From assembly GCA_020444265.1 (NCBI GenBank), contig JAHLLH010000002.1, positions 361,033 through 425,032 on the forward strand: a stretch of DNA of 64,000 nucleotides. Direction: 5' to 3'. The stretch is from a bacterium (lineage in GTDB: Bacteria > Electryoneota > Electryoneia > Electryoneales > Electryoneaceae). The notes beneath the pieces are model-generated. The model was not told the origin of the DNA and made no database searches. It saw only the letters and a list, made by a program, of their open reading frames with translations. The position numbers and the translations under genes were made by a program. Positions 8,749 through 28,440 of this stretch are shown here, piece after piece. The stretch's first letter is position 1. The number at the start of each line of letters is the position of its first letter.

Positions 8749-10956
8749 ATGAGACGATCAATTCAGATTGTATGCACAGTAGCGCTTGTCGGGTTTTTAT
8801 TTCTGACAGCACTCTCCCACGCGCAAGAGTGGGCCCAGCAGCAGATGCCCGCTGGAAGCTCCATGCGCTATTTTTGGAATCCTCACGACACATCGGAAGT
8901 GGTTGGTTGCCGTCTGAATGAGCATCAGATGTATAGAAGCCTGGATGGCGGACGAAGCTGGGCGCCCTCCAACGAAGGTTTCCCCGCAGGGCCGCACCTG
9001 GACGCTACGATGATCTATCACCCGACCTCGCCTGATACCCAATACTATGTGGAGTATCAAAGGCTATTCCGAAGTTTTGATGGTGGAGTATCCTGGCAGG
9101 ACTGTTTCCCCGAGCAGGCGGACAATATCCGGAATGTCGAAGTGAGCCCCGTGGAGGCAAGCCGTATCACCTGCTTCGACTTGAACGGCACCGGCGGCCA
9201 CCTGATCAGTGAAGACTATGGTGATAGCTGGACTATAATGCCCGTTCCTGAAGGTCTTGCCAATCTTCGATTCGATCCCTTCTCAGAGCAGCATCTAATC
9301 GCCACCTCGTCAGATTCGCTCTTCGAATCCTTTGATGCCGGAGTGACGTGGAATCCCTACCCAGCACAGGTAACAGATTTAATCATCGGGACCATAAGCG
9401 ATATACTGTTCGACCCTGTTCGCCCGGATACGATCTATGTCAACTGGTACAATGATATCGTCCCAGCCGTTACAATGACTCGTTTCACGATTTCACCCGA
9501 GCCACATGTCGACATCCTGGCGGAGGGTACCCTGACGGATGCTTCCCCCTCGGGTCTGCTTGTGGCGAAGTCATCGTCGTATCCCAATTTCCAGTCAAAC
9601 CTGTATACGAGTCTGGATGGTGGAGACACCTGGAACCAAATCGCGGAGTGGTTTCCATACACCGGGCAATTCGATGGTGTGCTGACACAGTCGCCCAACC
9701 TTTTACCAAACCCATCCGATCCGCAGTCAGGCCTTCTTTTCGAAGGGGTTTATTCCTTCCACACGACCACAGGTGGGATTGATCCGGGCACAATTGTTAC
9801 CGGGGTTGATGTGCAACGTATTGCAGGCATCTATCCGCGAGGGGATGATACCATGGTGCTGTCCGGGCATGGTCAATTGTGGAATTTGCGGCAAGATGTA
9901 GAGCCAACCTGGCCGATACTGTGGGATTTTGTCAGCGATGTAGCGTCGCTGAATGATGCCTGCGACACCCTCTTTGCCGCTGGACTGGGGTTTCGTCGAA
10001 GCGTGGATGGTGGCAATTCGTGGACAGTCACCCCAGGTACTTTTTATGTAAACAACACGAGCAACGTGCTGGTGCTGCCCTCTGATCCACCCCGAGTGTT
10101 GTTCGACTACAATGGGATGTTATATAAGTCAACCGACTGGGGGAACTCCTACAACCCGGTCGAAGAGAGTGGGCTTCCGGATACGTGGGGAGGCTTCGAC
10201 ATCTACACAAACCCCTCTTCGCCCAACCAGGTCTGGTTTCACAAGCAAGGCGACCTCTACCTGTCTGAGGATTACGGAGACCATTTCAGCCAGGAACTCG
10301 AAACCGAATCGAATATGATCGATCTCGAGATGACCGCCAGTAACCAGATTCTATATATGCTACACCCCGAAGGCACGATCAGCTACTGGATTCGTGATAC
10401 CGAAGCACTCGTTTCTATCCATGTGCCCTCCGAGCTGGGGGCGGTTTTTGCGATCGCCTTACGTCCCGGAACCCTCGGCCATTTCTTTATTGGCACATTT
10501 CACGGGGTTCATGCGACGCAGAATTATGGAGGCAGCTGGACCGAGATCGAGGGCGATTTCGAGGGGACAGTCACCTCGTTGGCCTTCAGCCAAGAGGGGT
10601 CGGATCTCTATGTCGGTACCCAGGATGATGGCTTGTGGATCGGGTCCGATCTCTTCCCGCCCAATGCACTTGCGGACGATTCGAACGATCTTCCTGCCAC
10701 CATCACGCTGCTTCTCGCCTGGCCGAATCCGTTTAATGCCAGCACACGGATTGCTTATGACTTGCCGCGAGCGGGTCGGGTGAATCTGGCGGTTTACGAT
10801 CTGCTGGGGAGGCGAGTTGCGCTGCTGGATGAGGGGTTGCGCGGTGCGGGACGGCACGAGGTGAGTTGGGAAGCGGACGCTGCCAGCGGAACCTATATCG
10901 TTCGTCTGCAAAGCGAAAGTTTCGACCAGGCGCAGAAGGTGTTGTTGGTAAGGTAG
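8749..10956 (+). CDS. Secreted Asp-box (BNR/sortilin-like) beta-propeller protein with C-terminal sorting domain
   Basis: The 735-residue protein begins with a signal peptide (MRRSIQIVCTVALVGFLFL, cleavage near SHAQE). ATG 8749 is chosen because GGGGAGG ends 8 bases upstream; an ATG at 8743 is too close. At least nine Asp-box motifs recur through residues about 40-620 (RSLDGGRSW, RSFDGGVSW, TSLDGGDTW, RSVDGGNSW, QNYGGSW), which form beta-propeller blades. The last 80 residues match a T9SS type A/FlgD-like tail (WPNPFNASTRIAYDLP, VYDLLGRRV, SGTYIVRL). This predicts export and surface attachment or release. No sialidase catalytic residues were recognised, so this is probably a structural or binding propeller. 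It is a stand-alone gene bounded by terminator and repeats. Confidence 0.85.
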   Translation: MRRSIQIVCTVALVGFLFLTALSHAQEWAQQQMPAGSSMRYFWNPHDTSEVVGCRLNEHQMYRSLDGGRSWAPSNEGFPAGPHLDATMIYHPTSPDTQYYVEYQRLFRSFDGGVSWQDCFPEQADNIRNVEVSPVEASRITCFDLNGTGGHLISEDYGDSWTIMPVPEGLANLRFDPFSEQHLIATSSDSLFESFDAGVTWNPYPAQVTDLIIGTISDILFDPVRPDTIYVNWYNDIVPAVTMTRFTISPEPHVDILAEGTLTDASPSGLLVAKSSSYPNFQSNLYTSLDGGDTWNQIAEWFPYTGQFDGVLTQSPNLLPNPSDPQSGLLFEGVYSFHTTTGGIDPGTIVTGVDVQRIAGIYPRGDDTMVLSGHGQLWNLRQDVEPTWPILWDFVSDVASLNDACDTLFAAGLGFRRSVDGGNSWTVTPGTFYVNNTSNVLVLPSDPPRVLFDYNGMLYKSTDWGNSYNPVEESGLPDTWGGFDIYTNPSSPNQVWFHKQGDLYLSEDYGDHFSQELETESNMIDLEMTASNQILYMLHPEGTISYWIRDTEALVSIHVPSELGAVFAIALRPGTLGHFFIGTFHGVHATQNYGGSWTEIEGDFEGTVTSLAFSQEGSDLYVGTQDDGLWIGSDLFPPNALADDSNDLPATITLLLAWPNPFNASTRIAYDLPRAGRVNLAVYDLLGRRVALLDEGLRGAGRHEVSWEADAASGTYIVRLQSESFDQAQKVLLVR

Positions 10957-10962
10957 ACTGTC

Positions 10963-11163
10963 TGTCACCCCGGGCTTGACCCGGGGCCCAGCCGAGAGGG
11001 ATTCGACGGGGTAGACGATCGCCATCCGAGCGACTCGACCTGAAGCGAGCTCGCATTGGGATGAGACACCCCCTCGCAACGCCCCGAGTGGGTCAGGTGT
11101 GCCGACTGGGGAGCGTCGCAGAACCAGTGGATGCTGGATCCCGGGTCAAGCCCGGGATGACAC
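10963..11163. repeat. Family A interspersed inverted repeat, copy 1
   Basis: Two arms face each other: TCACCCCGGGCTTGACCCGG near 10965 and its counterpart GGATCCCGGGTCAAGCCCGG ending with GGGATGACA at 11163. About 140 bases of unique-looking sequence lie between. Related arm pairs occur at 24782-24967, 31319-31540 and 39664-39853, with a single arm at 20242-20275. Confidence 0.8.
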
Positions 11164-11180
11164 GAGGAAGGCTGCATCAT

Positions 11181-11355
11181 GTCATCCCCAGCACACAATC
11201 CGGTGTAACCGGATAGTGACCGAAGGGAACAGGCGAGCGTCGGGGATCCCCAGAAGCGACAAACGAAACCCCTGGCACATCGCCCCAGGGGATCCCCGAC
11301 GCGCACAACAGCAAAACCAAGCCCGCTGGCGCGGACTTGTGCGCTGGGGGATGAC
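11181..11355. repeat. Family B interspersed inverted repeat, copy 1
   Basis: It is bounded by GTCATCCCCAGC at the left and GCTGGGGGATGAC at the right. Internal landmarks are CGTCGGGGATCCCC and GACCGAAGGGAAC. Seven further copies lie at 20386, 22589, 40953, 41903, 45544, 46581 and 63788. No open frame in it looks coding. Confidence 0.8.
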
Positions 11356-11375
11356 ATCTTAAACCCCCTGAACAG

Positions 11376-11410
11376 ACAAACGCCCGACGGACAACCCGCC
11401 GGGCGTTTGT
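11376..11410. terminator. Bidirectional terminator between propeller gene and acyl-CoA dehydrogenase
   Basis: ACAAACGCCCGACGG pairs with CCGCCGGGCGTTTGT with one mismatch, and A/T-rich flanks lie on both sides. It is placed 16 bases after the stop of the minus-strand acyl-CoA dehydrogenase and can serve the convergent propeller gene. Confidence 0.8.
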
Positions 11411-11426
11411 CGTTGACAAGATTAAA

Positions 11427-12581
11427 TCACTTCATCTCGAGCATCGAACGGGCAATGACGAGACGCTGGATCTCGCTGGTGCCCTCGCCGATCTCGGTAA
11501 TTTTCGCATCACGGAACATCCGCTCGACAGGGTATTCTTTCACATACCCATAGCCACCGTGCACCTGGATCGCCTGGTTGCAGACACGTGTCGATACTTC
11601 CGACGCGAAGAGCTTGGCGATGGCCGATTGACGGCTGAACGTCTTGCCCTGGTCCTTCAGGCGGGCGGCGTGGTAGACCAAGTGACGGGCCGCTTCGATC
11701 TCAGTCGCCATGTCGGCAATCTTGTGCTGGATCGACTGGAAGGCGGCAATCGGCTTGTTGAACTGGAAACGTTCCTTGCTGTACTTGATCGCCTCTTCCA
11801 TCGCGCCCTGGGCAATCCCAAGCGCCATCGCACCGATCGAGATACGGCCACCATCGAGGGTGACGAGGAACTGCTTGAACCCCTCTCCTTCGGTGCCGAT
11901 GATGTTCTCTTTCGGAATTCGCAAGTCTTCGAAATGGATCATCGAGGTGTCAGAGGCCTTGATCCCGAGCTTCTTCTCCCGCTTGCCACGGATGTAGCCC
12001 TTTGCATCGGTCGGGATGATAAAACTGCTGATCCCGTGCGTCCCCTTGGTCTTGTCGGTCACTGCCGTCGCGACAATTGTCCCCGCCACGCCACCGTTGG
12101 TGCAGTAAATCTTGGTGCCGTTGATCACCCATTCGTCGCCATCGAGCACGGCGGTGGTTTCGGTGCCGCCGGCATCGGAACCGGCATTGGGCTCGGTCAG
12201 GCCGAACGCGCCGAGATGTTCACCACTGCAAAGCGGCGGCATCCACTTTTCTTTCTGCTCCTCGGTACCAAAGAGGTTGATCGGGCCGATGCCCAGTGAG
12301 ATATGGGCGGCAAGGGTGATACCGGTAGAGGCGCAGACACGGCTTAGTTCTTCAACGGCGATGATGTAGGAGAGGGTGTCCATCCCGGCTCCGCCGTACT
12401 TGTCGTCATAGCAGATACCGAGGAGTCCAAGTTCCGCCATCTTCCCGATGGTTTCCTCGGGGAAGCGTTCTTCCTCATCGATCTCGGCCGCAATCGGCTT
12501 CACCTCGGATTCGGCAAAGTCACGGACCATCTCGCGCAGCATTTTCTGTTCGTCGGTGAGGAACATGTCAGTGGCATCCAT
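11427..12581 (-). CDS. Acyl-CoA dehydrogenase
   Basis: The 384-residue flavoenzyme catalyses alpha,beta-dehydrogenation of acyl-CoA, passing electrons to electron-transfer flavoprotein. Visible are the N-terminal helical domain (FLTDEQKMLREMVRDFAE), the FAD-binding segments GAFGLTEPNAGSDAG and the C-terminal signature. The catalytic glutamate is E366 in EIGEGTSEIQR; the usual tyrosine before it is a glycine here. The start is ATG 12581, preceded by AAGAGGAG; upstream codons in frame are not favoured. Length and motifs fit short/medium-chain enzymes. It is the last gene in a long minus-strand run but is separated from the lipoprotein array by 270 bases with a hairpin, so it may have its own promoter. 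Confidence 0.93.
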   Translation of the reverse strand: MDATDMFLTDEQKMLREMVRDFAESEVKPIAAEIDEEERFPEETIGKMAELGLLGICYDDKYGGAGMDTLSYIIAVEELSRVCASTGITLAAHISLGIGPINLFGTEEQKEKWMPPLCSGEHLGAFGLTEPNAGSDAGGTETTAVLDGDEWVINGTKIYCTNGGVAGTIVATAVTDKTKGTHGISSFIIPTDAKGYIRGKREKKLGIKASDTSMIHFEDLRIPKENIIGTEGEGFKQFLVTLDGGRISIGAMALGIAQGAMEEAIKYSKERFQFNKPIAAFQSIQHKIADMATEIEAARHLVYHAARLKDQGKTFSRQSAIAKLFASEVSTRVCNQAIQVHGGYGYVKEYPVERMFRDAKITEIGEGTSEIQRLVIARSMLEMK

Positions 12582-12852: not shown

Positions 12853-13311
12853 CTAGGCTGTTGCACCCACTGCAGAGAAAGCCTCTGCGAAAAGATAAAA
12901 ACCATAGGCGACAACAATCATCATGAGGTCCACGGTAGCTCCGATAGCGGTGTATTTGTGACGTCCCTCGTCCGGACGGTGAATGACCATGATCGACTTG
13001 ATATCGTCCAGCATCACCCAGAGGGGCCCCTCAAGTTTCTCGCGTCCTATACGTTGGACAAGTATGGATGTTCCGGGGTCTGAATCAAGGAAGGTCGCCT
13101 CGAACTCACGGCCGTCCTTCATCAGGATCAGGACCCGCGCTTTGGCCTTGATCGTGTGGGCATAGGCATGGTCAACGTATTCGAGGCTCTCATTGCTGCT
13201 GTCCACAGAACTTCCAATCCCGTATCCCACGACAGTTGCACAACCTGTCCAGACTGGGATGCCAACGATCAGCAGGAACAGCGCGATACGTTTCAGAAGG
13301 TATTGTGACAT
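12853..13311 (-). CDS. Paralogous lipoprotein 1 of the array
   Basis: The 152-residue protein has a lipoprotein signal (KRIALFLLIVGIPVWTGC, lipobox Cys at about 23), then CATVVGYGIG. A small beta-rich domain (ARVLILMKDGREFEATFLDS, ILVQRIGREKLEG, WVMLDDIKSIMVI) is followed by one hydrophobic helix near the C-terminus (TVDLMMIVVAYGFYLFAEAF). This plan is shared by all nine paralogs: lipobox, short linker, Sm/SH3-like barrel pattern, C-terminal membrane segment. This one is the most diverged in the linker, lacking the PLDSL motif. GAGG precedes ATG 13311, and it starts 9 bases after the previous stop. Function unknown. Confidence 0.8.
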   Translation of the reverse strand: MSQYLLKRIALFLLIVGIPVWTGCATVVGYGIGSSVDSSNESLEYVDHAYAHTIKAKARVLILMKDGREFEATFLDSDPGTSILVQRIGREKLEGPLWVMLDDIKSIMVIHRPDEGRHKYTAIGATVDLMMIVVAYGFYLFAEAFSAVGATA

Positions 13312-13320
13312 TCGAGCACC

Positions 13321-13782
13321 TCAGACGGTGAAGGGGTTGCCGTTAATCATCCAGTTGAACGCCAGGATGAGCGTTAGAAAGGAGGAGTCGATAATCAGAC
13401 CAATCCGTGCGGCAGGACCAATGCTCCCTCCCTCGGCCGACTGGTAGCGCTGGATGGAGTGGAGTTGCCATGGGCGCAGGCCGACAGGCTTTGCCTGGCC
13501 GCCGCTCTGCAGACCCACCTGGAGCACAAAGGTTGTGTCATTCTCCATACCACGGTAATACCCCTTCAACATCTCGCCGCTAACCACCTCGACAAGCAGA
13601 CGGTCGCCTGTTTCAAGCCGTTGCAGGCTGTCCAACGGGATGGATTCTATCTCTGGCTCGACCCTGTCATCCGAGAGGAGAAAATGGTCCACCCCTGCAC
13701 CGATCATGGTCGCGCAACCGTTAAACAGGATGAGGCCGATCAGGAGCAGGGAAAGGAGAAAGGTGATTCGTTTTGGCCGCAT
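13321..13782 (-). CDS. Paralogous lipoprotein 2 of the array
   Basis: The 153-residue protein has a lipobox ending ILFNGCATMIGAG. The family core is clear: SIPLDSLQRLETGDRLLVEV, then GYYRGMENDTTFVLQVG and LRPWQLHSIQRYQ. The C-terminus carries a hydrophobic segment (IGLIIDSSFLTLILAFNWMI). The GD.LLV...D....GY pattern resembles Sm or SH3-like barrels, which is inference from strand periodicity. GGGGGAG sits two to three bases before the ATG. It is separated by 9 and 21 bases from its neighbours, so it is certainly in the same transcript. Confidence 0.82.
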   Translation of the reverse strand: MRPKRITFLLSLLLIGLILFNGCATMIGAGVDHFLLSDDRVEPEIESIPLDSLQRLETGDRLLVEVVSGEMLKGYYRGMENDTTFVLQVGLQSGGQAKPVGLRPWQLHSIQRYQSAEGGSIGPAARIGLIIDSSFLTLILAFNWMINGNPFTV

Positions 13783-13803
13783 TACTCCCCCACAAGGGTT
13801 CTA

Positions 13804-14241
13804 TTACTCTGCAAGAAAATAGATCAGAAGGATAAGAGCAAGCACAAAGGGTGCAATAGCATCAAGAAGCAGACCGCCGATCAGACCTGTTGTGCGTGCC
13901 TTCGTTGGTTCTTCAACCACATAGCTCCGTCGTATCTCATCCAGCGGCTGGATGGTGGTGGTCAGGATGAACTTTTTCCTTTTACTCAACTCAACATACT
14001 CCCCCTTGCTGTAGGAGAGCAGAAAACCCTGCGCTACCGTAGTGTCCTTGCGAACAATAATTAGACGGCTTCCTTGTGGGAGCAGCTCGATACGTGGGAT
14101 GGTGACCTCACGTAACGAGTGATTGCGCTCGTCAAGCGAACGTCCCGCCTTGTAGCCGAAGTGTGCCGTGCAGCCAGGGAGCAGCCCGAGAAGAAGGGTC
14201 GCTAAGAACAGAAGAAGGATCGTCCGACGTTTCATATCCAT
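13804..14241 (-). CDS. Paralogous lipoprotein 3 of the array
   Basis: The 145-residue protein starts at ATG 14241 (MDMKRRTILLLFLA), with ATG 14235 as an alternative. The lipobox is LLPGCTAHFG. The core follows as RIELLPQGSRLIIVRKDTTV, AQGFLLSYSKGEYVEL and IQPLDEIRRSYVV. A hydrophobic C-terminus (LLLDAIAPFVLALILLIYFL) ends the protein. The linker SLDERNHSLREVTIP aligns with DERN in paralog 7 and DRSN in paralog 5, which supports common descent. Function unknown. Confidence 0.8.
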   Translation of the reverse strand: MDMKRRTILLLFLATLLLGLLPGCTAHFGYKAGRSLDERNHSLREVTIPRIELLPQGSRLIIVRKDTTVAQGFLLSYSKGEYVELSKRKKFILTTTIQPLDEIRRSYVVEEPTKARTTGLIGGLLLDAIAPFVLALILLIYFLAE

Positions 14242-14254
14242 GTATCTCTGCTTT

Positions 14255-14683
14255 CTACAGGCTGAGGATGAGAGCGACAATCGCGGCGGTCCCGAACATC
14301 CCAATCGGAATCAGCAGGGGTGACATCAGTGCCATCCAGATCGTTTCGGGATCGTAGTTCGCTTCCACCCTGTACACCTTATCGATGCTGTCCCAGTCGA
14401 TGACGATTGTGTCGTAGACATGACTCGTCCAGGTGGTTCGCAGCAGGACATATTCCCCCTCGGCAACATCCAGCGGGTAGCCGTAGACCTCGCTGCTATC
14501 CTGTTGAACAAGCAGCACCGGCACACGGACCTCGTAGACCCGAAGTTTCTCCAACGGAATCTCTTCAAGGTTTTCTTCGATGTTCGCGGGACGGAATTCT
14601 GCCGTACGAAGGGGTCCTGCGCAGCCGGTGCACAGGAAGAGTGCAAGGAAAAGGATGGCTGGCAGAATCGTGTAAGTACGCAT
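14255..14683 (-). CDS. Paralogous lipoprotein 4 of the array
   Basis: The 142-residue protein starts at ATG 14683, with AAAGGGAG upstream. The lipobox is LFLCTGCAGPL. The core reads EIPLEKLRVYEVRVPVLLVQ, QDSSEVYGYPLDVAEGEYVL and VIDWDSIDKVYRVE, matching the barrel pattern and the terminal I.WD.I..V.R motif. The C-terminal stretch (LMSPLLIPIGMFGTAAIVAL) may form one or two membrane helices. It starts 17 bases after the stop of paralog 5. Function unknown. Confidence 0.8.
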   Translation of the reverse strand: MRTYTILPAILFLALFLCTGCAGPLRTAEFRPANIEENLEEIPLEKLRVYEVRVPVLLVQQDSSEVYGYPLDVAEGEYVLLRTTWTSHVYDTIVIDWDSIDKVYRVEANYDPETIWMALMSPLLIPIGMFGTAAIVALILSL

Positions 14684-14700
14684 CGAGTCTCCCTTTAACC

Positions 14701-15132
14701 TTACGTAGCCCATGCAGCAAACCAATAAGCAAACAGTACGAGCACAACATCAACAACCAGTCCCAACCCGGAGCCGAATCGTTCGAAGCCAGGATACATC
14801 TGATATCGTTGAATCCGTTCAATATTCCCCAGGGTGATGGTTTTCGTCCCATCCGGAACTGCGGGAAGCCGTCCACTGAGAACTAGTGTTGAATCATTGG
14901 ATCCCGATGCCAGGTAGCCACGAATCCGTTTCTGGTCGTGGGTGTTGACAATCAACAGGTCACCCACACGCAACAGCAACAAGCTGTCGAGCGGGACGGT
15001 GACCAGGGTAGCATTGCTTCGGTCTATTTTGCTGCCAAGATGTCCCAGCGCCATGCTGGCACAGCCAGTCGTCAGCAGAAGGCTGAGCATTATAAACAGC
15101 AGGATGGTGCGATTTTGTGGACGGTGGGTCAT
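14701..15132 (-). CDS. Paralogous lipoprotein 5 of the array
   Basis: The 143-residue protein has a signal (NRTILLFIMLSLLLTTGC) and lipobox Cys followed by ASMALG. It carries one of the clearest family cores: TLVTVPLDSLLLLRVGDLLI, then THDQKRIRGYLASG, TLVLSGR and LGNIERIQRYQ. A C-terminal hydrophobic helix follows (GLVVDVVLVLFAYWFAAW). The ATG has GAAGGGA upstream. It is tandem with paralogs 4 and 6. Function unknown; the lipid anchor plus a C-terminal helix would hold the small barrel close to a membrane at both ends. Confidence 0.82.
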   Translation of the reverse strand: MTHRPQNRTILLFIMLSLLLTTGCASMALGHLGSKIDRSNATLVTVPLDSLLLLRVGDLLIVNTHDQKRIRGYLASGSNDSTLVLSGRLPAVPDGTKTITLGNIERIQRYQMYPGFERFGSGLGLVVDVVLVLFAYWFAAWAT

Positions 15133-15164
15133 ACCATCCCTTCATGATTTAATAAGCTGGCCTG

Positions 15165-15677
15165 CTATACAGTGCCAGGTCCGTTAAAAATGAACGTGAT
15201 GATAAGGATCACGAGGGCTGAAAAGACAAAGCCGTAATAAGCCCCCACAGCATCGACCGGGAGACCAAGTATAACCCCGGTCATCCGTCTACGGATCGGC
15301 TGCTGAATCAGACGTACATACATCAGGTCCGAACGATGGATGGTCTGGTTCTGGTGGCCAAGGATCCAGCTGCCTGATCGAACAACAAGTGATGTGTCCA
15401 GGCGGATTGACTGAAGTTTGCCCTCCAATTCCGTCTCATCCTGCAACGTAATCAGCAGATGGTCCCCTTTATGGAGGGTCAGGAGCTGGTCGAGCGGAAC
15501 CGGCTCGATGGTCCGGTTCCAACGGTCCACCTGGGTGGCGGTAGATGTGGTGATAAAGGTGGCGCACCCGGAAACCAGGATCATGGCCAACAGGCTGCAC
15601 AAAAGCACGGCCCGTCGAAATGTTGCCCTTGTGGTTCGCACAAATCCTGCTCGTTCTGATGGGGTCGTTGATTTCAT
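15165..15677 (-). CDS. Paralogous lipoprotein 6 of the array
   Basis: The 170-residue protein has an unusually long N-region before the lipobox (VLLCSLLAMILVSGCATF). The core is PVPLDQLLTLHKGDHLLITL, QDETELEGKLQSI, TSLVVRSGSW and HRSDLMYVRL. A C-terminal hydrophobic segment follows (GFVFSALVILIITFIF). Its ATG overlaps the stop of paralog 7 as ATGA, implying translational coupling, which explains the weak ribosome site. Function unknown. Confidence 0.82.
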   Translation of the reverse strand: MKSTTPSERAGFVRTTRATFRRAVLLCSLLAMILVSGCATFITTSTATQVDRWNRTIEPVPLDQLLTLHKGDHLLITLQDETELEGKLQSIRLDTSLVVRSGSWILGHQNQTIHRSDLMYVRLIQQPIRRRMTGVILGLPVDAVGAYYGFVFSALVILIITFIFNGPGTV

Positions 15678-16144
15678 AGGATAAAAACCGGTATGAAAAT
15701 GAACCCAATAATCGCTCCAGAGAAGAAGGAGAGCACTCCACCAATCCCGAGGTCCATCAGGGAGCCGAGGAAATAGCCGCCAGAGCTACGTCGCCCCATC
15801 GGGTACTCAAGCCGTTCCACACGGGTGATGCGAGGCCAGGAAACCCTCAGGGTTTCGTCGCCTACAACTCCCCAATGTTTGCGTAGAAGGATGAATTCGT
15901 CCCGCTCGACGTGATCGAGGTAGCCCTCATAGATCTGGTCGCCATCATAGGTCACAACGATTTCCGTGCGCTCGCTGAAGACATGAAGGGTGTCGAGCTG
16001 GATTTCAACCGCAAGGGCATTTCTTTCGTCGAATTTCCGGTCCACCCTGAACCCGGTGGTGGCACATCCGGTCACCAACAGGAGGAGCGGAAGGGGGAGC
16101 AGGAGGTAGCGTCCAGGGAGGCTATTTGCACGGGTTTTATTCAC
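15674..16144 (-). CDS. Paralogous lipoprotein 7 of the array
   Basis: The 156-residue protein starts at GTG 16144. The lipobox is LLLLVTGCATTGF. The core reads AVEIQLDTLHVFSERTEIVV, TYDGDQIYEGYLDHVERDEF and VSWPRITRVERLEYP. The C-terminus is strongly hydrophobic (FSGAIIGFIFIPVFIL) and ends the protein. Its stop overlaps the start of paralog 6 (ATGA). The DERN residues after the lipobox match paralog 3. Function unknown. Confidence 0.82.
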   Translation of the reverse strand: MNKTRANSLPGRYLLLPLPLLLLVTGCATTGFRVDRKFDERNALAVEIQLDTLHVFSERTEIVVTYDGDQIYEGYLDHVERDEFILLRKHWGVVGDETLRVSWPRITRVERLEYPMGRRSSGGYFLGSLMDLGIGGVLSFFSGAIIGFIFIPVFIL

Positions 16145-16240
16145 CGAATCCCCATGTTGAAGGGATAGGTTGGGCTGATACCATGTTATGTTGCATTGTC
16201 TGAACTCCCCCAGTCTGATACGTACAGCAGGAACAAGATA

Positions 16241-16522
16241 CTACCGACGGATTCCTTGTGTCACCCCCATGATCATGGCGACAGCCAGCAGGATAAATAC
16301 GATACCTGACAGCGCGACAATCAGCACGGGGCTATCGCTGCGCCGAAGCACAAACCAGAGGACAATACAAGCAACCCCCGTCAGTCTGCCCATACCCGGA
16401 TGCAACGGCAACAACCCACCACGTTGCGAGCCGATACTGCCGAACCAGAGGGGAAGGATCAGAGGATTGGATGGAATCCCCGCCCCGAGAATCAGGATGA
16501 TGCCAACGGCGAGCAGGATCAC
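16241..16522 (-). CDS. Small polytopic membrane protein within the lipoprotein array
   Basis: The 93-residue protein begins at a GTG (16522). It has about three hydrophobic helices: ILLAVGIILILGAGIP, a central LTGVACIVLWFVL, and LIVALSGIVFILLAVAMIMG. It has no lipobox and is not a paralog of its neighbours. It lies between the cobalamin-binding gene (44 bases upstream) and lipoprotein 7, so it belongs to the same transcript. I do not recognise the family, and coding status rests on membrane-like composition and operon spacing. Confidence 0.6.
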   Translation of the reverse strand: MILLAVGIILILGAGIPSNPLILPLWFGSIGSQRGGLLPLHPGMGRLTGVACIVLWFVLRRSDSPVLIVALSGIVFILLAVAMIMGVTQGIRR

Positions 16523-16565
16523 GGTTTCATTCTACCTTTCATCATGCTGGGTTCAGAAATGCGAA

Positions 16566-17621
16566 TCACTCCTTCACCAGCTGGTTCCCAAGCTTGACCG
16601 CTTCCTCTGCATTCCTCGGTGATCCGACAATCCCCAGGTCTTTCAGGATCGAGGGGTTTTGACGAAAGATAAATCCGCCTGCGATGACAGGAATGGACGC
16701 ATGCTCAGAAGCCTTGAGTCGTTTCAGCATATCACGTATCCGTAGAATACTGGTGTAAAGGGTTGCTGAAACAGCCAGCAGGTCTGCTTCGTACCGCTGG
16801 ACAGCGGAAATGACATCTTCAACCGGCGTACGTGCCCCGAGAAAAACAGCGGTCCAACCATCATACTCGAACAAATCGGCGACCATTCGGATGCCGAGCT
16901 CGTGCTGGTCATCAGTCGCCGCGCAAACCACTGTCCTCTTCTTCGGTTCCAACGAGACAAAACGGAGGTAGAGCTGGGCCATCACAAGGTGGGTGATCCC
17001 GGAGGCGTAGTGCTCGTCCGCAACCCCCACCTTTCCGATTTCCCACAACCGTCCAATCTCATACTGTACCGGTTCGAGCACATTGAGGTAGATTTCTGGG
17101 AGGGTCAGGCCACGGTCCGCAGCGTCCAGCACGACCTGACGAGCCTCGTTGCCTCGTGCACGCAGGAGAGCGGCGAGGTAGTCTCGAGCCACGTCCACGT
17201 GGGGGGCATCATCTTCCAGAAAACTGCTCTGTTCCCAGTGGGTGGTACTGAAAACTTCTGTTCCGGCAGTGAAAGAAGATTGAATGACCTTCACTTCGGA
17301 GGGGGAGAGAGACTGTTTCAGCGTGTCTTGAATGGTATTCCCGACACGCTGCGCAGCGGAGGATTGGATGCCCAGCCCACGGAGATAGGAGCGCATCCAG
17401 CCCATCTGACGTGAGTAGGGATCGGGCTGCCCAGTCGCAATGGCCTCGGCCAATGATGCGATCGTGTTCCCGACATATTCACGCAGGCTGAACCGATCCC
17501 GCGTAAAACTCCTGATGCCCGGCTCTTCGAGATTGATCAGTGCCTGTTCAATCGTCATGGTCAGTTCATCAAGACGTTCTACGAGGAGGGTTTCCTCGCT
17601 GGAATCAGAAAAAGTACCCAT
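16566..17621 (-). CDS. Cobalamin-binding sensor-like protein, CarH-type C-terminal module, no HTH
   Basis: The 351-residue protein has an N-terminal helical part (about 1-130) of unknown type. A four-helix B12 cap domain follows (about 145-225), then a Rossmann cobalamin-binding domain (about 230-340). The cap contains W193, E203 and H204, the Wx9EH spacing known from CarH photoreceptors. DQHELG supplies the lower axial histidine H240, 36 residues later, close to the CarH spacing. CarH proteins carry a MerR helix-turn-helix at the N-terminus; this protein does not. It could therefore sense light or cobalamin through protein contacts, or simply transfer methyl groups. The start is ATG 17621, with AGGGGG upstream; an in-frame TTG at 17729 overlaps the upstream gene. 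It is embedded in the lipoprotein array. Confidence 0.85.
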   Translation of the reverse strand: MGTFSDSSEETLLVERLDELTMTIEQALINLEEPGIRSFTRDRFSLREYVGNTIASLAEAIATGQPDPYSRQMGWMRSYLRGLGIQSSAAQRVGNTIQDTLKQSLSPSEVKVIQSSFTAGTEVFSTTHWEQSSFLEDDAPHVDVARDYLAALLRARGNEARQVVLDAADRGLTLPEIYLNVLEPVQYEIGRLWEIGKVGVADEHYASGITHLVMAQLYLRFVSLEPKKRTVVCAATDDQHELGIRMVADLFEYDGWTAVFLGARTPVEDVISAVQRYEADLLAVSATLYTSILRIRDMLKRLKASEHASIPVIAGGFIFRQNPSILKDLGIVGSPRNAEEAVKLGNQLVKE

Positions 17622-17706
17622 CAGCTTTGCATCCCCCTGCAACGGTCTGCGATAGCCTACAAAGATCGATCCCTTCTCAGCAAATGCTTTTTCGCAAAGC
17701 TCTCTA

Positions 17707-18168
17707 TTATCCAGAACTTGGGATGCCAAACACGAGTAAGAAAAGCAAGGCTGAACCTATGGTAAGGACAAGGTAAAGATCAGCAGCAAACCCCGTAAAG
17801 ACACCCACTGTTTCTCCGATGTGATGGTTCTTCAATCGCTGCACCGACTCGATTGTGTTCCACTCGATCTGGTCCATCCACTCGGGCTCGTCCTTCATGT
17901 CCGAGCAGACAACAATAAATTCCTTTTGTCGAATCATGTCCACGTAGCCACGGACAGCACCGTGATCGGTGGTCTGCACAAGCACTTGATCGCCCCGATA
18001 GAGATAATGCGAAAGGCTGTCGAGAGGGATTGGTTCAACCGACGCGCTCGCCTCGTCAAAGGCCCCTCCAACACGCGCGCCCAAATAGGTTGCACAGCCC
18101 TCGACCACAAGGAAGAGGAGTAAATGAGCTACAAGCAGAAAGAAATGATTGATTCGCAGGCGACGCAT
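17707..18168 (-). CDS. Paralogous lipoprotein 8 of the array
   Basis: The 153-residue protein has a lipobox VVEGCATYLGARVGG. The core reads SVEPIPLDSLSHYLYRGDQV, LVQTTDHGAVRGYVDMIR and IEWNTIESVQRLKN. The C-terminal hydrophobic part is ADLYLVLTIGSALLFLLVFG. GGAGGG precedes ATG 18168. It follows directly after the glcF 3' fragment, which suggests that it arose together with that fragment by segmental duplication. Function unknown. Confidence 0.82.
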   Translation of the reverse strand: MRRLRINHFFLLVAHLLLFLVVEGCATYLGARVGGAFDEASASVEPIPLDSLSHYLYRGDQVLVQTTDHGAVRGYVDMIRQKEFIVVCSDMKDEPEWMDQIEWNTIESVQRLKNHHIGETVGVFTGFAADLYLVLTIGSALLFLLVFGIPSSG

Positions 18169-18221
18169 GAATCCCTCCGTACATAACCGCCTAGCTGATT
18201 ATTTCCAGAATATTTATTACT

Positions 18222-18348
18222 CTACCAATCAGATCGTTCCATGATCAGCTCCGCAAGGTGCATGGTGCGCACCTGGGTGGTGCTGTCGTGTGCCTGACGT
18301 TCCTGCAAGGTCACCAGGCAACCGGGACTCGATTCGACTTCCACTGTG
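18222..18348 (-). pseudogene. Duplicated 3' fragment of the glcF-like gene
   Basis: Read on the minus strand, this segment encodes VEVESSPGCLVTLQERQAHD, then TTQVRTMHLAELIMERSDW and a stop. It matches the last 40 or so residues of the intact gene at 18883-20133 (SSPGCLATLQERQAHD, TTQVRTMHPAELIMERCDW). The copy begins within a few bases of the stop of lipoprotein 9 and has no start codon or ribosome site. The frame and stop are still intact with mostly conservative changes, so it is either a moderately recent duplicate or was homogenised. It marks a tandem duplication of the unit glcF-end plus lipoprotein. Confidence 0.9.
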
Positions 18349-18352
18349 TAGC

Positions 18353-18808
18353 CTAAATCGCCGCGAAAAGGGTCATGATCGCAACAGCCTCTGTCAGGGC
18401 TTGAATGATTAGGAATAGAACGTATGTGTCGCCCACCATTCCGATCCCTGCACCCCAGTTTTTTGCCGCCTTCGGGGTAACATACCGGGCAGCACGATCC
18501 ACTTCTTCCAAGGCGAGGAAAAGAGTGTGTTGTTCATGAAAGCTGGTACGTTGCCAGATTTCGAGCGAATCCTCTTCCGTGATCTGGAGCAGAAACCCTT
18601 CGACAACACTACTGTCCGTCAAGGTCAGGGCGAGACGTTGGCTGCTGGGCATCAGCGCCAGGCTGTCGAGCGGCAGCTCGACGGGATAGGAGCGGGCATC
18701 ATCCACCACAGCACCTGTGAACCAGCCGACAGCGGTGCAGCCAGCCGTGGACAACATTAACAGCAAGATGATCGAGAGATTGAAGATGTTCCATTGATGA
18801 TGCTGCAT
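18353..18808 (-). CDS. Paralogous lipoprotein 9 of the array
   Basis: The 151-residue protein starts at ATG 18808 with AAGGAGAGAG upstream. The lipobox is LMLSTAGCTAVGW. The core is VELPLDSLALMPSSQRLALT, TDSSVVEGFLLQIT and LALEEVDRAARYV. The C-terminus is hydrophobic (YVLFLIIQALTEAVAIMTLF). It lies between the intact glcF-like gene and the duplicated glcF tail, in the place lipoprotein 8 occupies relative to the fragment. Function unknown. Confidence 0.82.
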   Translation of the reverse strand: MQHHQWNIFNLSIILLLMLSTAGCTAVGWFTGAVVDDARSYPVELPLDSLALMPSSQRLALTLTDSSVVEGFLLQITEEDSLEIWQRTSFHEQHTLFLALEEVDRAARYVTPKAAKNWGAGIGMVGDTYVLFLIIQALTEAVAIMTLFAAI

Positions 18809-18882: not shown

Positions 18883-20133
18883 TCACCAGTCACATCGCTC
18901 CATGATGAGCTCCGCCGGGTGCATGGTGCGCACCTGGGTGGTGTGGTCGTGCGCCTGACGTTCCTGCAGGGTTGCCAGGCAGCCGGGGCTCGATACAATG
19001 GCGACCGGGACACGTGTCGCCAGCATGTTGTCGATTTTACGTCGCTGCCAGGTTGCGGCTTCATCGGGATAGATCGAAGAGAACGATCCACCAAACCCGC
19101 AGCAGATGGTTGATTCGGCCATTTCCTTGATGCTTACCCCCGGGAGACGGTTCATCAGGTTTCGAACACTGTCCTGCTTGCCAGTCGTGTGCGTCAGATG
19201 GCAGGAGTCATGAACCGTCACCTCGAGGTCGGGCGCTTTGGTGGGGGGAAAGACCGGGTCGAGGGTCTCCATCACAAAGCTGGCCCAGTCGCTGGTCTTC
19301 TCTTTAATCTCAAGTGCCAGCTCGAGCAACTCGTCATCGGCTTGGAGCATCAGGTCGGGCAGTTCATGCTGGAACGCTCCGCCGCAGGTAGCATCGGGCG
19401 AGACAACGGCATCCACTCCCGCCTCGCTGAACGCCTTCAGGTTGACATGCGCCAAGCGGCGGGCCGTATCAAAGTCCCCGTTGTTGAAGGCGGGCGCGCC
19501 GCAGCAGACCTGATGCTTCGGCAGCACCACTTCGGCACCCAACCGCCTCAGCACCTCGATAGCGGCCAACGCGGGACCATCAGCGACATAGTTCGCCATG
19601 CAGCCGAGGAAGAGGCCGACACGTGCACGTTTGTGCGTGTAGGGTGGTAGAATCTCGTCCATGCCTCGCAGAAAGGATCGTGTCCGCAAATTGGGCACCG
19701 CCATCCCACCAGCGAGGGTGTTGACCGCTTTGTGCCCGAGGGTTTTCTGCGCGATGGACCCGAGGGTGACTCCCAGCTCGACTCGTTCCGGTTTCTCGAG
19801 GGTCTTGAAGATCATCTTTTTCGCGGTGGGGATGCCGCGAGCATCAGCGATCACCTTCCGCGCCGCGATGAAAAGCAGATCGGTCCGCACCCCCGCGGGA
19901 CAGGCGGTCTGGCAGGCGTAGCAGAGGGTGCAGAAGTCGAACGTCTCCGGAGAGATGTTTGCCGGTTTGATGTCGTTGGCCACCAGACGGCGTAGCAGCA
20001 CAATCCGTCCACGTGGCGAGAGCAGCTCACGGTCAGACAGTTGGAACGAGGGACAGACCGACTGGCAGATGCCACAGGTGACACAGGCATCCAGCTCGCG
20101 TTGCAGACGGCTCAGTTCGGGGTAGTCGATCAT
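18883..20133 (-). CDS. glcF: Glycolate oxidase iron-sulfur subunit-like (Fe-S)-binding oxidoreductase
   Basis: The 416-residue protein has two N-terminal 4Fe-4S ferredoxin motifs: CVTCGICQSVCP (about 17-28) and CTLCYACQTACP (about 68-79). Two CCG domains follow (GCMANY with CCGAPAFNNGD, and DSCHLTH with CCGFGGSFSS). This is the GlcF/LutA/HdrD-like architecture, which transfers electrons from a flavoprotein 2-hydroxyacid dehydrogenase such as GlcD to the quinone pool or a cytochrome. No glcD or glcE is adjacent in the window, so its partner is elsewhere. The ATG at 20133 has a weak ribosome site. It is the first gene of the minus-strand run containing the lipoprotein array, and its 3' end is duplicated at 18222-18348. 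Confidence 0.88.
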   Translation of the reverse strand: MIDYPELSRLQRELDACVTCGICQSVCPSFQLSDRELLSPRGRIVLLRRLVANDIKPANISPETFDFCTLCYACQTACPAGVRTDLLFIAARKVIADARGIPTAKKMIFKTLEKPERVELGVTLGSIAQKTLGHKAVNTLAGGMAVPNLRTRSFLRGMDEILPPYTHKRARVGLFLGCMANYVADGPALAAIEVLRRLGAEVVLPKHQVCCGAPAFNNGDFDTARRLAHVNLKAFSEAGVDAVVSPDATCGGAFQHELPDLMLQADDELLELALEIKEKTSDWASFVMETLDPVFPPTKAPDLEVTVHDSCHLTHTTGKQDSVRNLMNRLPGVSIKEMAESTICCGFGGSFSSIYPDEAATWQRRKIDNMLATRVPVAIVSSPGCLATLQERQAHDHTTQVRTMHPAELIMERCDW

Positions 20134-20241
20134 GGCGATAATATAACGACTTGGGCTCGGTCAATCCTGTTGGCCTGGGGGTCTTCTTGGATTTGATGGG
20201 CGCGGACGCGGGCTAGGGATGAAAAGACAAAGACCTACACG

Positions 20242-20275
20242 TGTCATCCCGGACTTGATCCGGGATCCAGCATCT
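20242..20275. repeat. Family A repeat, single arm (copy 2)
   Basis: TGTCATCCCGGACTTGATCC is followed by GGGATCCAGCAT. No opposing arm is seen before the family B element that starts 110 bases later. It lies in the 700-base gap between the glcF-like gene and rplU. Confidence 0.75.
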
Positions 20276-20385
20276 GCTGGTCCTGGCATGCTCCCCCCGT
20301 CGGCCTACCTGACCTGCTCGGGGCGTTGCGAGTAGGTGTGCTGACATGCTTCGCTTGGGTGGCGGGGCACCGAAGCCACAAAACC

Positions 20386-20564
20386 TGTCATCCCCAGTGC
20401 ACAAGTACGCGTCAGCGGGCTTGGTTCTGCAGCTGTGCGCGTCGGGGATCCCCTTTGAATGAGCGGTACCGTGTTGTCGCTTCGCCTGCGAGGACTCCCG
20501 ACGGGCTGGGGGTGGTCTTCGACCACAAGGATGCTGACGCATCCTGTCGCGCTGGGGGTGACAG
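20386..20564. repeat. Family B interspersed inverted repeat, copy 2
   Basis: It is bounded by TGTCATCCCCAGTGCACAAG and GCGCTGGGGGTGACA, with internal GCGTCGGGGATCCCC. The following 200 bases up to the rplU promoter show nothing recognisable. Confidence 0.8.
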
Positions 20565-20766
20565 GTGTGGGTGGCCTAGTAAAAAAGCTTGCCAGGTGAA
20601 GACGACTGTCTCGATGGAGAGATTTCTCCAGCTTACCGCTTGTGATGGTGTGGTGTTGGGCAGTAGAGTAAACCCCGCCCTCAAGCAGTGGGGCCATACC
20701 TTGTTTTTCGAAAGAGAAAAACAGGTCAAAATGGCCTCATCTCGGGGAGGCGAGCGTTTTTGTCCA

Positions 20767-20795
20767 TTGCTCGCGCGAAGGCGGGCGCTTATATT
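20767..20795 (+). promoter_or_regulatory. Probable promoter of rplU-rpmA
   Basis: TTGCTC (20767-20772) and TATATT (20790-20795) are spaced by 17 bases, the sigma-70 optimum. The -10 ends 42 bases before the rplU start. The element lies downstream of all repeats in this gap. Confidence 0.55.
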
Positions 20796-20837
20796 CCCGT
20801 TTGCTTGAAAACGTGAACAGTGGGAGTACTCTGTCCG

Positions 20838-25005: not shown

Positions 25006-28000
25006 TCAGCGGGAGGAGGTGGAATCGACTGCCGCACCGCGATCCCGTTCGAGGGCGCGGAAGTAGTCACGAATGGTCTCACGCCAGGGACGGGAATAAT
25101 CACCATCGAGGGCACGCAGCATCCGTTCGCGCAGCAGGTCTTCTTCTTCGGGTGGTAGTTCGCCCGGCGCAGAAATCCGTCCCCCCTCGGCCACACGACC
25201 GGTCCGTTGACGGCTATACTCACGTTCCTGCAGGGAGCGTTGGCTGTCCAGCAGACGTTGCACGATTCGCTGCTGCAACCGTTTGGTGCGTGAGGTAACC
25301 GATTGATCCTCGAGGTCTTTGGCGACCTGATCCATCGCATCCCCCAGCCCATCGAGCGAGCCTAACATCTCTTCCATCGACTGGTTCTGCGACTGCCGTT
25401 CCAGTTGACGCATCTGCTCAGCCAATGCACGTTGCCGTGCCGCCATCTGCCGCATCATCTGCCCTCTGGACCCCGGTTGGGAGCCAGGCATGGGCATTTG
25501 CATGCTCTGGCTACCCTGGTTGAGCTGCTGTTGCTGCTGCGCCATCTGCTGGAGCGACTCCATCATCTCCTGGTAGCCGGTGCCGCTGGACGAATTCTGC
25601 ATGGCCTGCTGGGAGGAGTTGAGACGCAAGAGGGCGAGATGCATCATCGCCAAAGCGTGTCCCTGTTCCCCCGTGACTTCGCGTGGGCGACGATCTGTAT
25701 ACCGCTCTATCGCCGTCTCCATGTAGGAACGAGCTCGCTGCAAGTCGCCAGCAATGGGTGCACCGACAAAGAATGATTGTTTCATCAACTCGGCGACATC
25801 GTCCTCGAGCACGCTCATCCCCTCCAACAGCGCCTCCTGATCGGCGGCGAGAGCGGGGTATCTCGGGCTGGCGATACCGAGGGTGCTCGACTGGACACGA
25901 AGCGCTTCCTGATGGCGGCTCAGGAGCAGGATGCGCGCGTAGAGGCGGTCCATCTCCTTGCCAACTTCCTGCTTGCCCTGGTCCGCATAGGATTGCTGGG
26001 TCTGACGCATCCGTTGCGCGAGCTGTTGCATCTGCTCACCGGCCTGCTGGGAGGGTTTCTGTGCCTGTTGGGGTTGTCCCTGCTGCATCGATTGCTGGGA
26101 CTGCTGCATGGACTCTTTGAGGTTCTCATCCTGCGCAGCGTTGGCCTGCTGGTTCAGTGAGTCGGCGAGCGCCTGGTTGTTTTCGCCGGCTGCATCGTCG
26201 GCGACTTCTTCCGCCCGTTCCGCCAGGTTCTCCAGCTCCTCCTCGATGCGCTGCTGCTCGAGGGCCGCCTGCTTCGCCTCCTGGCTGGTGGCATCCTCCA
26301 TTCGCTGGGCAAGATCCATCTGACGATCCGCGAGGTCCTCGGCCCGTTTCGCCAGCTCATCGAGTCGTTTCTCCATCTGCAACCGTTCGAGGATCGAGAG
26401 GTTGCGATCGAGGTTCTCCATCAACTGGTCCTGGTTGGCAACCAGTTCTTCGAGTGCTTCACGGACCTGCTCTCCGTCCATCTCCTCCATCGCGGTACGC
26501 AGCTTCTCCATCGCCTCACGCATCTCCGGTGTGGCGATCTCTTCCATCAATTCCTGCAGCCGCTGGTACTTTTCGAGAAGTTCCTCGCTCAGCAGGTTTT
26601 GCGATTCGGCTTGTTCCTTGAGCTGTTCGAGGGTGTTAGCGACCTCGTCCATGTTTTGCAGCATTTCTTCCTGACGGTCCAGGGTCTGCTGCAGCGCACG
26701 TGTCTCTTCCCAGCTCATCTCATCCGGGTTCGACTTCATCCGGGTGAGGGTCTCTTCAAGTTTCCGTTTCGTCTCTTCAGCCTGCTCGCGGGCTCGTGCC
26801 ATCTCGTCGCCCGCCTCCTGCTCCTGCTGCTCGGTGAGCTGGAAAAGCTCTTCAACCGAGGGGAATACGAGGCGGCGGGTTTCGGTTCGGGCACGTTTCG
26901 GCCCGCCATAGATGTCATTGTCCCACGCTTCCACGAAGTAATGGACCTCGTCCGTGGGGAGCAGGGGCAAATCGGTCAAGGGCCAGAGGCCACGAACGAT
27001 AGCTCGCCCGGACTCATCGGTTTCCGGCTGGAGATCGACCCCCTGAAATTGGTTCTCGCTGACGCTGTCCGGCCCGAGCAGGTCGGTGTGGATACGGTAG
27101 CGCAGACGCATCTTGCTGATGCCGTAATCATCGTCCGCCAGGGTCACCAGCGGGACCACGAGGCGGTCGGGAATCAATGCGCCATCTTCCGGCAGGCGAA
27201 TCTCAACTCGCGGATACTGGTCAGAGATGGTGGTGATGTCGTAGCGGACCGGTTCATCGCTTGCAACGCCATCACGGGCGGTCAAATTTACCCACCACTG
27301 ACCAGGTGAGCCGACGTTGAAACGTCCTGTCACATTCCGCTGATCGACACGAAGTTCGAGCGAATCGAGTTCGCCATCCTGTTCTTCCAGTTGTAACCAG
27401 GCGGCGGAGAGGGGACGGCTTGCTTCGAGGGCGATTTGTACACGGGTTCCCGGAAGGGCGGTTACTTCGCCAACCCCAACTGGCAGGGAAATCGGCTCCT
27501 GGCTGGTGTAGGCGGGTGGCTGGAGGGTCAGTTCCACACGGGCCACCCGCGGGCGCGCGATCATCACAACATCGACCGTGTCGCTGGATAATCGTCCGCT
27601 GACCGCCGCGACACGAGCGTTGCGCTGAATATTCTCGAGCAGGGCCGTGTAGAGGGTCGTGTCCGCAGAATCCTGTGTTGTTTCCAGGCGACGGACCAGC
27701 CCGGTGCCTTCATCAACGAGGAAACGCAGGGCGCGGGGTCTAGCGTGCCGGGCACGGACGCGTAACTCGACATCCTCCCCCTGAACCACTCGCATGGTAT
27801 CAGGCCCCTCGAGCGCGAGGACAACTCGTCCCGGCTTGAGGAAGGTGACCGTGGGATTGGCGAGACGATACCCTGCATTAAAAAGCGCATCCCCGACAAG
27901 GATCAGTGCGAGGACTGTCACTGCCGTAGCGACCGCAAAGGAACGCAGCGCATTGAAGAGGGGAGTCTGACGCAGAAAACGGCTGCTCACGAGGGTTGAC

Positions 28001-28440
28001 GCAAAAGCATCCGCCTGTTCGAGGGCAGCACGGCGCAGATCGGCGCTGGTATTCGGGTCCTGCTTCGCTTCGAGCTGGAGAGCGTTCAGCAGACGGTCAT
28101 GGCTTTCCTCATCCTCCTGCCAGATCCAACGTGCGAGGGTCTCGAAAGAGGGGACCGTGCTGCGGAAGAGAAGCACGAGAGTGTAGAGGAGGGGTGCGAG
28201 CAGGACAAGAGCCGCCGTCCAACGGAGCAGCCCCGCCAGCAGGCTGCGCGCCGCCGGGTCAAACCAGGCGATGGCTTCCAGCCCGGTGATAGCGAGCGCG
28301 AGGAGCAGGACAAAGGCAATGGATGCCAGCCAGGCCGCACCGGCCCAGACGATTTTCTGACGTCGCCGGAGTTGTGTCAGCAGGGCGGTAATGTTGGGCA
28401 GGGTTGTACGCATGCCAGGTCTCGCTGCGGTCTCGTGCAT
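25006..28440 (-). CDS. Giant DUF4175-like membrane protein with long coiled coil
   Basis: The 1144-residue protein has three N-terminal hydrophobic helices (about 34-56, 70-92 and 165-188). A beta-rich extracytoplasmic region (about 195-480; GRVVLALEGPDTMRVVQGED, YDITTISDQYPRVEIRLPED) follows. A very long Glu/Leu coiled coil runs from about 520 to 780. The last part is Gln/Met-rich (QQSQQSMQQGQPQQAQKPSQ) to about 1100. The order matches DUF4175-type proteins known from Bacteroidota and Gemmatimonadota, whose function is unknown. Its size and rod-like shape suggest an envelope-spanning or scaffold role (inference). ATG 28440 has only a weak ribosome site; ATG 28413 is an alternative. Confidence 0.88.
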   Translation of the reverse strand: MHETAARPGMRTTLPNITALLTQLRRRQKIVWAGAAWLASIAFVLLLALAITGLEAIAWFDPAARSLLAGLLRWTAALVLLAPLLYTLVLLFRSTVPSFETLARWIWQEDEESHDRLLNALQLEAKQDPNTSADLRRAALEQADAFASTLVSSRFLRQTPLFNALRSFAVATAVTVLALILVGDALFNAGYRLANPTVTFLKPGRVVLALEGPDTMRVVQGEDVELRVRARHARPRALRFLVDEGTGLVRRLETTQDSADTTLYTALLENIQRNARVAAVSGRLSSDTVDVVMIARPRVARVELTLQPPAYTSQEPISLPVGVGEVTALPGTRVQIALEASRPLSAAWLQLEEQDGELDSLELRVDQRNVTGRFNVGSPGQWWVNLTARDGVASDEPVRYDITTISDQYPRVEIRLPEDGALIPDRLVVPLVTLADDDYGISKMRLRYRIHTDLLGPDSVSENQFQGVDLQPETDESGRAIVRGLWPLTDLPLLPTDEVHYFVEAWDNDIYGGPKRARTETRRLVFPSVEELFQLTEQQEQEAGDEMARAREQAEETKRKLEETLTRMKSNPDEMSWEETRALQQTLDRQEEMLQNMDEVANTLEQLKEQAESQNLLSEELLEKYQRLQELMEEIATPEMREAMEKLRTAMEEMDGEQVREALEELVANQDQLMENLDRNLSILERLQMEKRLDELAKRAEDLADRQMDLAQRMEDATSQEAKQAALEQQRIEEELENLAERAEEVADDAAGENNQALADSLNQQANAAQDENLKESMQQSQQSMQQGQPQQAQKPSQQAGEQMQQLAQRMRQTQQSYADQGKQEVGKEMDRLYARILLLSRHQEALRVQSSTLGIASPRYPALAADQEALLEGMSVLEDDVAELMKQSFFVGAPIAGDLQRARSYMETAIERYTDRRPREVTGEQGHALAMMHLALLRLNSSQQAMQNSSSGTGYQEMMESLQQMAQQQQQLNQGSQSMQMPMPGSQPGSRGQMMRQMAARQRALAEQMRQLERQSQNQSMEEMLGSLDGLGDAMDQVAKDLEDQSVTSRTKRLQQRIVQRLLDSQRSLQEREYSRQRTGRVAEGGRISAPGELPPEEEDLLRERMLRALDGDYSRPWRETIRDYFRALERDRGAAVDSTSSR

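Follow-up and report, generated by a model that had tools for sequence, protein, structure and literature searches.

What has brought nine short lipoprotein genes together on one strand of a bacterial genome, and what might so many divergent copies be used for? The genes, designated L1 to L9 by rising coordinate (12853-18808), lie in the window, the whole stretch of 64,000 nucleotides herewith analysed, on a contig of 750 kb from the 4.33 Mb genome of an uncultured bacterium of the Electryoneota (Candidatus Electryonea family), the one genome of its genus in the comparison. On the minus strand, the order of transcription is glcF, L9, a glcF tail, L8, the B12-binding gene, the 93-aa ORF, L7 through to L1, and the acyl-CoA dehydrogenase gene (Table 1).

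Table 1. Features of the lipoprotein locus (coordinates refer to the window)
Feature	Position	Strand	Evidence
L1, lipoprotein paralog, 152 aa, most divergent of the nine	12853..13311	minus	profile score, codon use, lipobox
L2, lipoprotein paralog, 153 aa	13321..13782	minus	profile score, codon use, lipobox
L3, lipoprotein paralog, 143 aa; start set at 14235 rather than at the upstream TTG	13804..14235	minus	profile score, codon use, lipobox
L4, lipoprotein paralog, 142 aa; start set at 14683	14255..14683	minus	profile score, codon use, lipobox
L5, lipoprotein paralog, 143 aa; predicted Sm-like structure	14701..15132	minus	profile score, structure prediction
L6, lipoprotein paralog, 170 aa as read; true start may be further in	15165..15677	minus	profile score, codon use, lipobox
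L7, lipoprotein paralog, 156 aa, read from a GTG start and overlapping L6 by ATGA	15674..16144	minus	profile score, codon use, lipobox
Hydrophobic membrane ORF, 93 aa, coding-like codon use, without family	16241..16522	minus	ORF list, codon use
B12-binding protein (PF02607 + PF02310), CarH/corrinoid type, within the array	16566..17729	minus	domain search
L8, lipoprotein paralog, 153 aa	17707..18168	minus	profile score, codon use, lipobox
Truncated second copy of glcF 3' end, 110 nt, 87% identical	18224..18333	minus	sequence comparison
L9, lipoprotein paralog, 151 aa; predicted Sm-like structure	18353..18808	minus	profile score, structure prediction
glcF-like gene, Fer4 + CCG domains, intact; upstream array border	18883..20133	minus	domain search
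Acyl-CoA dehydrogenase gene (acd); downstream array border	11427..12581	minus	domain search

The pairwise identity among the nine proteins is as low as 19-34%, and yet all are true paralogs of one family, as the sequence-only reading had proposed. In leave-one-out searches a profile built without the protein in question found it again with 23-54 bits in every case, against a best score of 11.1 bits at most among 2,000 shuffles of each paralog, and the Z value against composition-preserving shuffles was at least 2.3 for every pair after removal of the signal peptide and the C-terminus. The two findings named beforehand as contrary to paralogy, unrelated folds and a lack of profile similarity, were both looked for and neither was obtained, the folds being compared for two of the nine (L5 and L9), modelled from one shared alignment. 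In all nine genes codon use favoured the annotated frame over both other frames of the strand, and a search of the 4.33 Mb genome with the nine-protein profile gave no tenth copy (next match, E = 0.35). The sequence divergence is too deep for an explanation by gene dosage, in agreement with the earlier view.

All nine proteins share a lipobox, a barrel-like core and a C-terminal hydrophobic helix. The lipobox carries G-C in every case after a hydrophobic stretch, and it is usually GCAT as first described (GCAT in five, GCTA in two, GCAG and GCAS in the others), while the mean Kyte-Doolittle value of the 19-residue C-terminal segment ranges from 1.8 to 2.6. The most constant positions are the lipobox G-C, the Gly of strand 2 and a G-x3-D motif of the C-terminal helix; the GD pair of the GD.LLV core motif is present in only four of the nine paralogs. 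Conservation is highest at the lipobox, the strand cores and G-x3-D and lowest in strand 4 and the loop that joins it to strand 3, and the net charge of the core varies from +6 to -11. Both anchors, the lipobox and the C-terminal helix, are retained in family members across genera and phyla.

The arrangement proved less uniform than the single array with short gaps or ATGA overlaps that had been described. This description fits L1-L7, which are contiguous with gaps of 9-32 bp and an ATGA overlap of L6 and L7, but not L8 and L9, which are set apart from these seven by the B12-binding gene and the membrane ORF and have 184 bp containing the glcF tail between them. Judged from the spacing, it is plausible that the nine genes are co-expressed in one transcript; scans for promoters and terminators over the array gave no more sites than in shuffled sequences. 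No DNA-binding domain was found by domain search in the B12-binding protein, a distant relative of which (32% identity over the B12 part) occurs in one of the six other genomes of the same family, on a different contig from the lipoprotein copy of that genome. The whole glcF-array-dehydrogenase block is flanked by inverted copies of a mosaic repeat (11006-11403 and 20212-20800; about 80% identical), pieces of which are present at about 50 places in the genome. Elsewhere in the window are a Sortilin/BNR-repeat protein (8755-10953) with a weak, sub-cut-off match to Por_Secre_tail of type IX secretion, and a DUF4175 protein of 1,144 aa (25009-28440).

For the barrel-like core, AlphaFold2 models were made of L5 and L9, the two members modelled, using the nine-row alignment as input (pLDDT 81.9 and 84.6, respectively). 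Both models include an N-terminal helix formed by the signal and the following stretch, a short strand, a helix at 47-53, five strands at about 58-111 and a long C-terminal helix. Sm/LSm/Hfq or RimP structures made up nearly all the top Foldseek matches of both models, with a probability of about 1 and E values starting at 8e-4, and the nearest solved structures in VIA-align were Sm/LSm/Hfq/SmAP and RimP with Z up to 8.4 for L5 and 9.6 for L9, values that cover the whole barrel but stand near the level which common small barrels reach through arrangement alone. The predicted fold of L5 and L9 is thus an Sm/LSm-like small barrel of a helix and five strands, in accord with the core originally suggested. 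The PLDSL linker and the I..V.R motif are now read as parts of this fold, the former as its opening helix (47-53) and the latter as strand 5.

Likeness to Sm/LSm/Hfq/SmAP proteins lies in the predicted barrel, with Z of about 8.0-8.8 against Hfq chains and Hfq-like chains of archaea: the array proteins have no significant sequence match to them, and differ in carrying an export signal, a lipobox and a C-terminal hydrophobic helix, which would place them outside the cytoplasm. A Pfam scan gave no match of any of the nine to PF01423 (LSM), and by this sequence comparison they are not members of the LSM sequence family; a related fusion protein from another genome matched PF01423 at E 0.02, below the cut-off, and a profile search of PDB gave several Sm/LSm and KOW/SH3-type chains at E 0.03-1, both results lending the fold weak but independent support from sequence. 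Comparable Z values (8.2-9.6 over 55-68 residues) were obtained for the RimP C-terminal domain, the spore crust protein CgeA and a domain of the diheme cytochrome Kustd1711, a structural likeness between proteins of different architecture, among which CgeA provides a precedent for such a small barrel serving outside the cytoplasm. The YgdI/YgdR lipoproteins (DUF903) are also LSm-like; none of the nine matched their Pfam model, their chains were not among the structural matches listed for L5 and L9 by Foldseek and VIA-align, and a literature search gave nothing pertinent on Sm-fold lipoproteins or YgdR/DUF903.

Pfam, NCBIfam and PHROGs gave no family match for the nine proteins and, like a PADLOC scan, only chance-level matches; assignment of L8 to Csx20 (E 0.005) was dropped after this match was seen in only one of the nine paralogs. 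The proteins form an undescribed family of lipoproteins, unnamed in the profile libraries searched. Its members were detected in 43 of 631 searched genomes (10 in one search and 18, 7 and 8 more in three later ones) from four phyla, Electryoneota and three more, a biased frequency because the later searches were centred on genomes already giving matches. Copies elsewhere number one to four per genome, and no other genome gave more than four matches, leaving nine as the extreme; among seven genomes of the same family, the window genome has nine, G001 four dispersed copies, G003 and G005 one each and the other three none. Tandem pairs or triples are found at several loci of other genomes, those of other phyla included (L064, L065, L101, L102 and L104-L107). 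Longer forms include one of about 250 aa, with extra sequence between the barrel and the C-terminal helix, and one of about 640 aa in other phyla, with an additional C-terminal domain of about 380 aa without Pfam match (L065:6134-8053, L099:3237-5159, L100:3528-5498, L101:5685-7631, L102:4720-6636, L103:4011-5915 and L104:5545-9378); a separate lipoprotein (L066:2619-4250) carries this domain as well. At the loci L100 and L104, a nearby gene reads like a ketoacyl synthase. A tree of the nine with five relatives (G001d missing) consisted of long branches, its inner branches without good support, so that it tells apart neither the order of the duplications nor duplication in place from import.

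Two genomes of the same family, G005 and G006, keep the order glcF...acd, with acyl-CoA dehydrogenase 81% identical and unrelated genes in the 3-5 kb between, which indicates that the array sits in an interval variable between genera. Beside the glcF genes of the six relatives from the same family there is no recognisable member of the lipoprotein family (the glcF contig of G004 ends close to the gene), so that a connection of the array with glcF or B12 is not supported, and a link to glycolate oxidation was dropped for the same reason. The glcF tail between L8 and L9 differs from the 3' end of glcF at 14 positions, 8 of them third codon positions, or by about 0.14 changes per site, whereas 59% of the aligned nucleotides differ between L8 and L9, the proteins being 25% identical. 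Given 87% nucleotide identity for the tail against 41% for the genes, L8 and L9 had diverged before the event that made them neighbours; by these relative divergences, and barring later gene conversion between the two glcF tails, which is the alternative to import, a simple tandem duplication of glcF tail plus lipoprotein was dropped. At least one already divergent lipoprotein gene was probably brought in by recombination, most simply in that incoming DNA, with glcF and next to it the divergent lipoprotein gene, entered the locus and the earlier glcF persisted there as its tail.

We consider that the array is a lineage-specific expansion of an unnamed envelope lipoprotein family, gained by duplication and recombination and providing a diversified binding or adaptor repertoire, a reading to which we would give an even chance. 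Each protein would be exported and lipidated on its N-terminal Cys, as the lipobox suggests, with a single predicted Sm/LSm-like barrel just outside the membrane; the hydrophobic second helix at the C-terminus, opening with G-x3-D, may be embedded in the membrane or lie on it, so that the barrel would be held near the membrane from both ends. The combination of conserved anchors and strand cores with variable loops, strand 4 and charge fits a shared scaffold for different partners: the nine differ in loops and surface charge while keeping fold and anchors, and may be envelope binding or adaptor proteins each with its own partners. Growth would have proceeded by tandem duplication together with recombinational import of divergent copies between glcF and acd, where gene content varies.

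Sm-type proteins are known to assemble, eukaryotic Sm/LSm paralogs into hetero-heptamers and Hfq/SmAP into homo-rings, in which strand 4 pairs with strand 5 of the neighbour. The nine proteins might likewise be subunits of one membrane-attached mixed ring for which every gene is needed, consistent with an Sm-like fold predicted in two divergent members, with the tight spacing and common direction of seven genes and with a depth of divergence expected of long-fixed subunits. We regard this as rather unlikely. Two observations argue mildly against it: relatives have between one and four copies, in many cases a lone copy or scattered ones, so that nine are not needed for the basic role, and the ring-pairing strand 4 is the least conserved strand. 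The array also appears to have been assembled partly through recombination, and many Sm/SH3 barrels form no ring. Quite improbable is its fuller form, an extracytoplasmic, membrane-bound hetero-oligomeric Sm-type assembly of nine paralogs from one operon, as a non-RNA counterpart of the eukaryotic Sm/LSm radiation.

Contrary to the earlier statement that no named system has this layout, tandem arrays of lipoprotein paralogs are known, and the present locus, with divergent paralogs in head-to-tail orientation and copies ranging from none in three family genomes and one to four in three others to nine here, resembles them. The S. aureus lpl/tilA genes (DUF576) encode clustered head-to-tail, non-identical lipoproteins of variable copy number with more copies elsewhere in the genome (PMC4470592, PMC10730906), and Borrelia PFam54 on lp54 comprises 6-11 divergent lipoprotein paralogs in tandem, shaped by duplication, loss and recombination (PMC11389397). 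No Pfam or NCBIfam model fits any of the nine, so that the array does not belong to DUF576, and it differs from lpl/tilA in the C-terminal hydrophobic helix, the predicted Sm-like core and the low identity between copies; compared with PFam54, the proteins differ (no Pfam match) and the genes lie on a 750 kb contig rather than being plasmid-borne host-interaction genes. A tandem array of divergent lipoprotein paralogs growing by duplication and recombination, as described for PFam54 (PMC11389397), speaks by analogy for variation of a surface antigen or phage receptor, which we nevertheless hold to be improbable, the hydrophobic helix suggesting a membrane-lying rather than a freely exposed protein, no host being known, and sequence comparison showing no long repeats among the array genes that could serve switching. 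Least probable is an orphan immunity array, each lipoprotein neutralising a toxin variant from competitors, as TilA-family (DUF576) lipoproteins do in S. aureus, where the non-identical tilA/lpl copies may give protection from toxin variants (PMC10730906): this parallel of layout and the import of divergent copies are set against profile scans that recognised no toxin or defence family in the array, the lack of any toxin-like gene seen retained beside relatives, and the occurrence of single copies in several phyla with no partner gene common to them.

The array represents the extreme expansion of an undescribed lipoprotein family with a predicted Sm-like barrel outside the cytoplasm, distributed over at least four phyla. 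In the glcF scar there is evidence that an array of this kind can expand through recombinational import of an already divergent copy as well as through local duplication. Should the copies form an assembly, Sm-type assemblies of paralogs would reach as far as the cell envelope.
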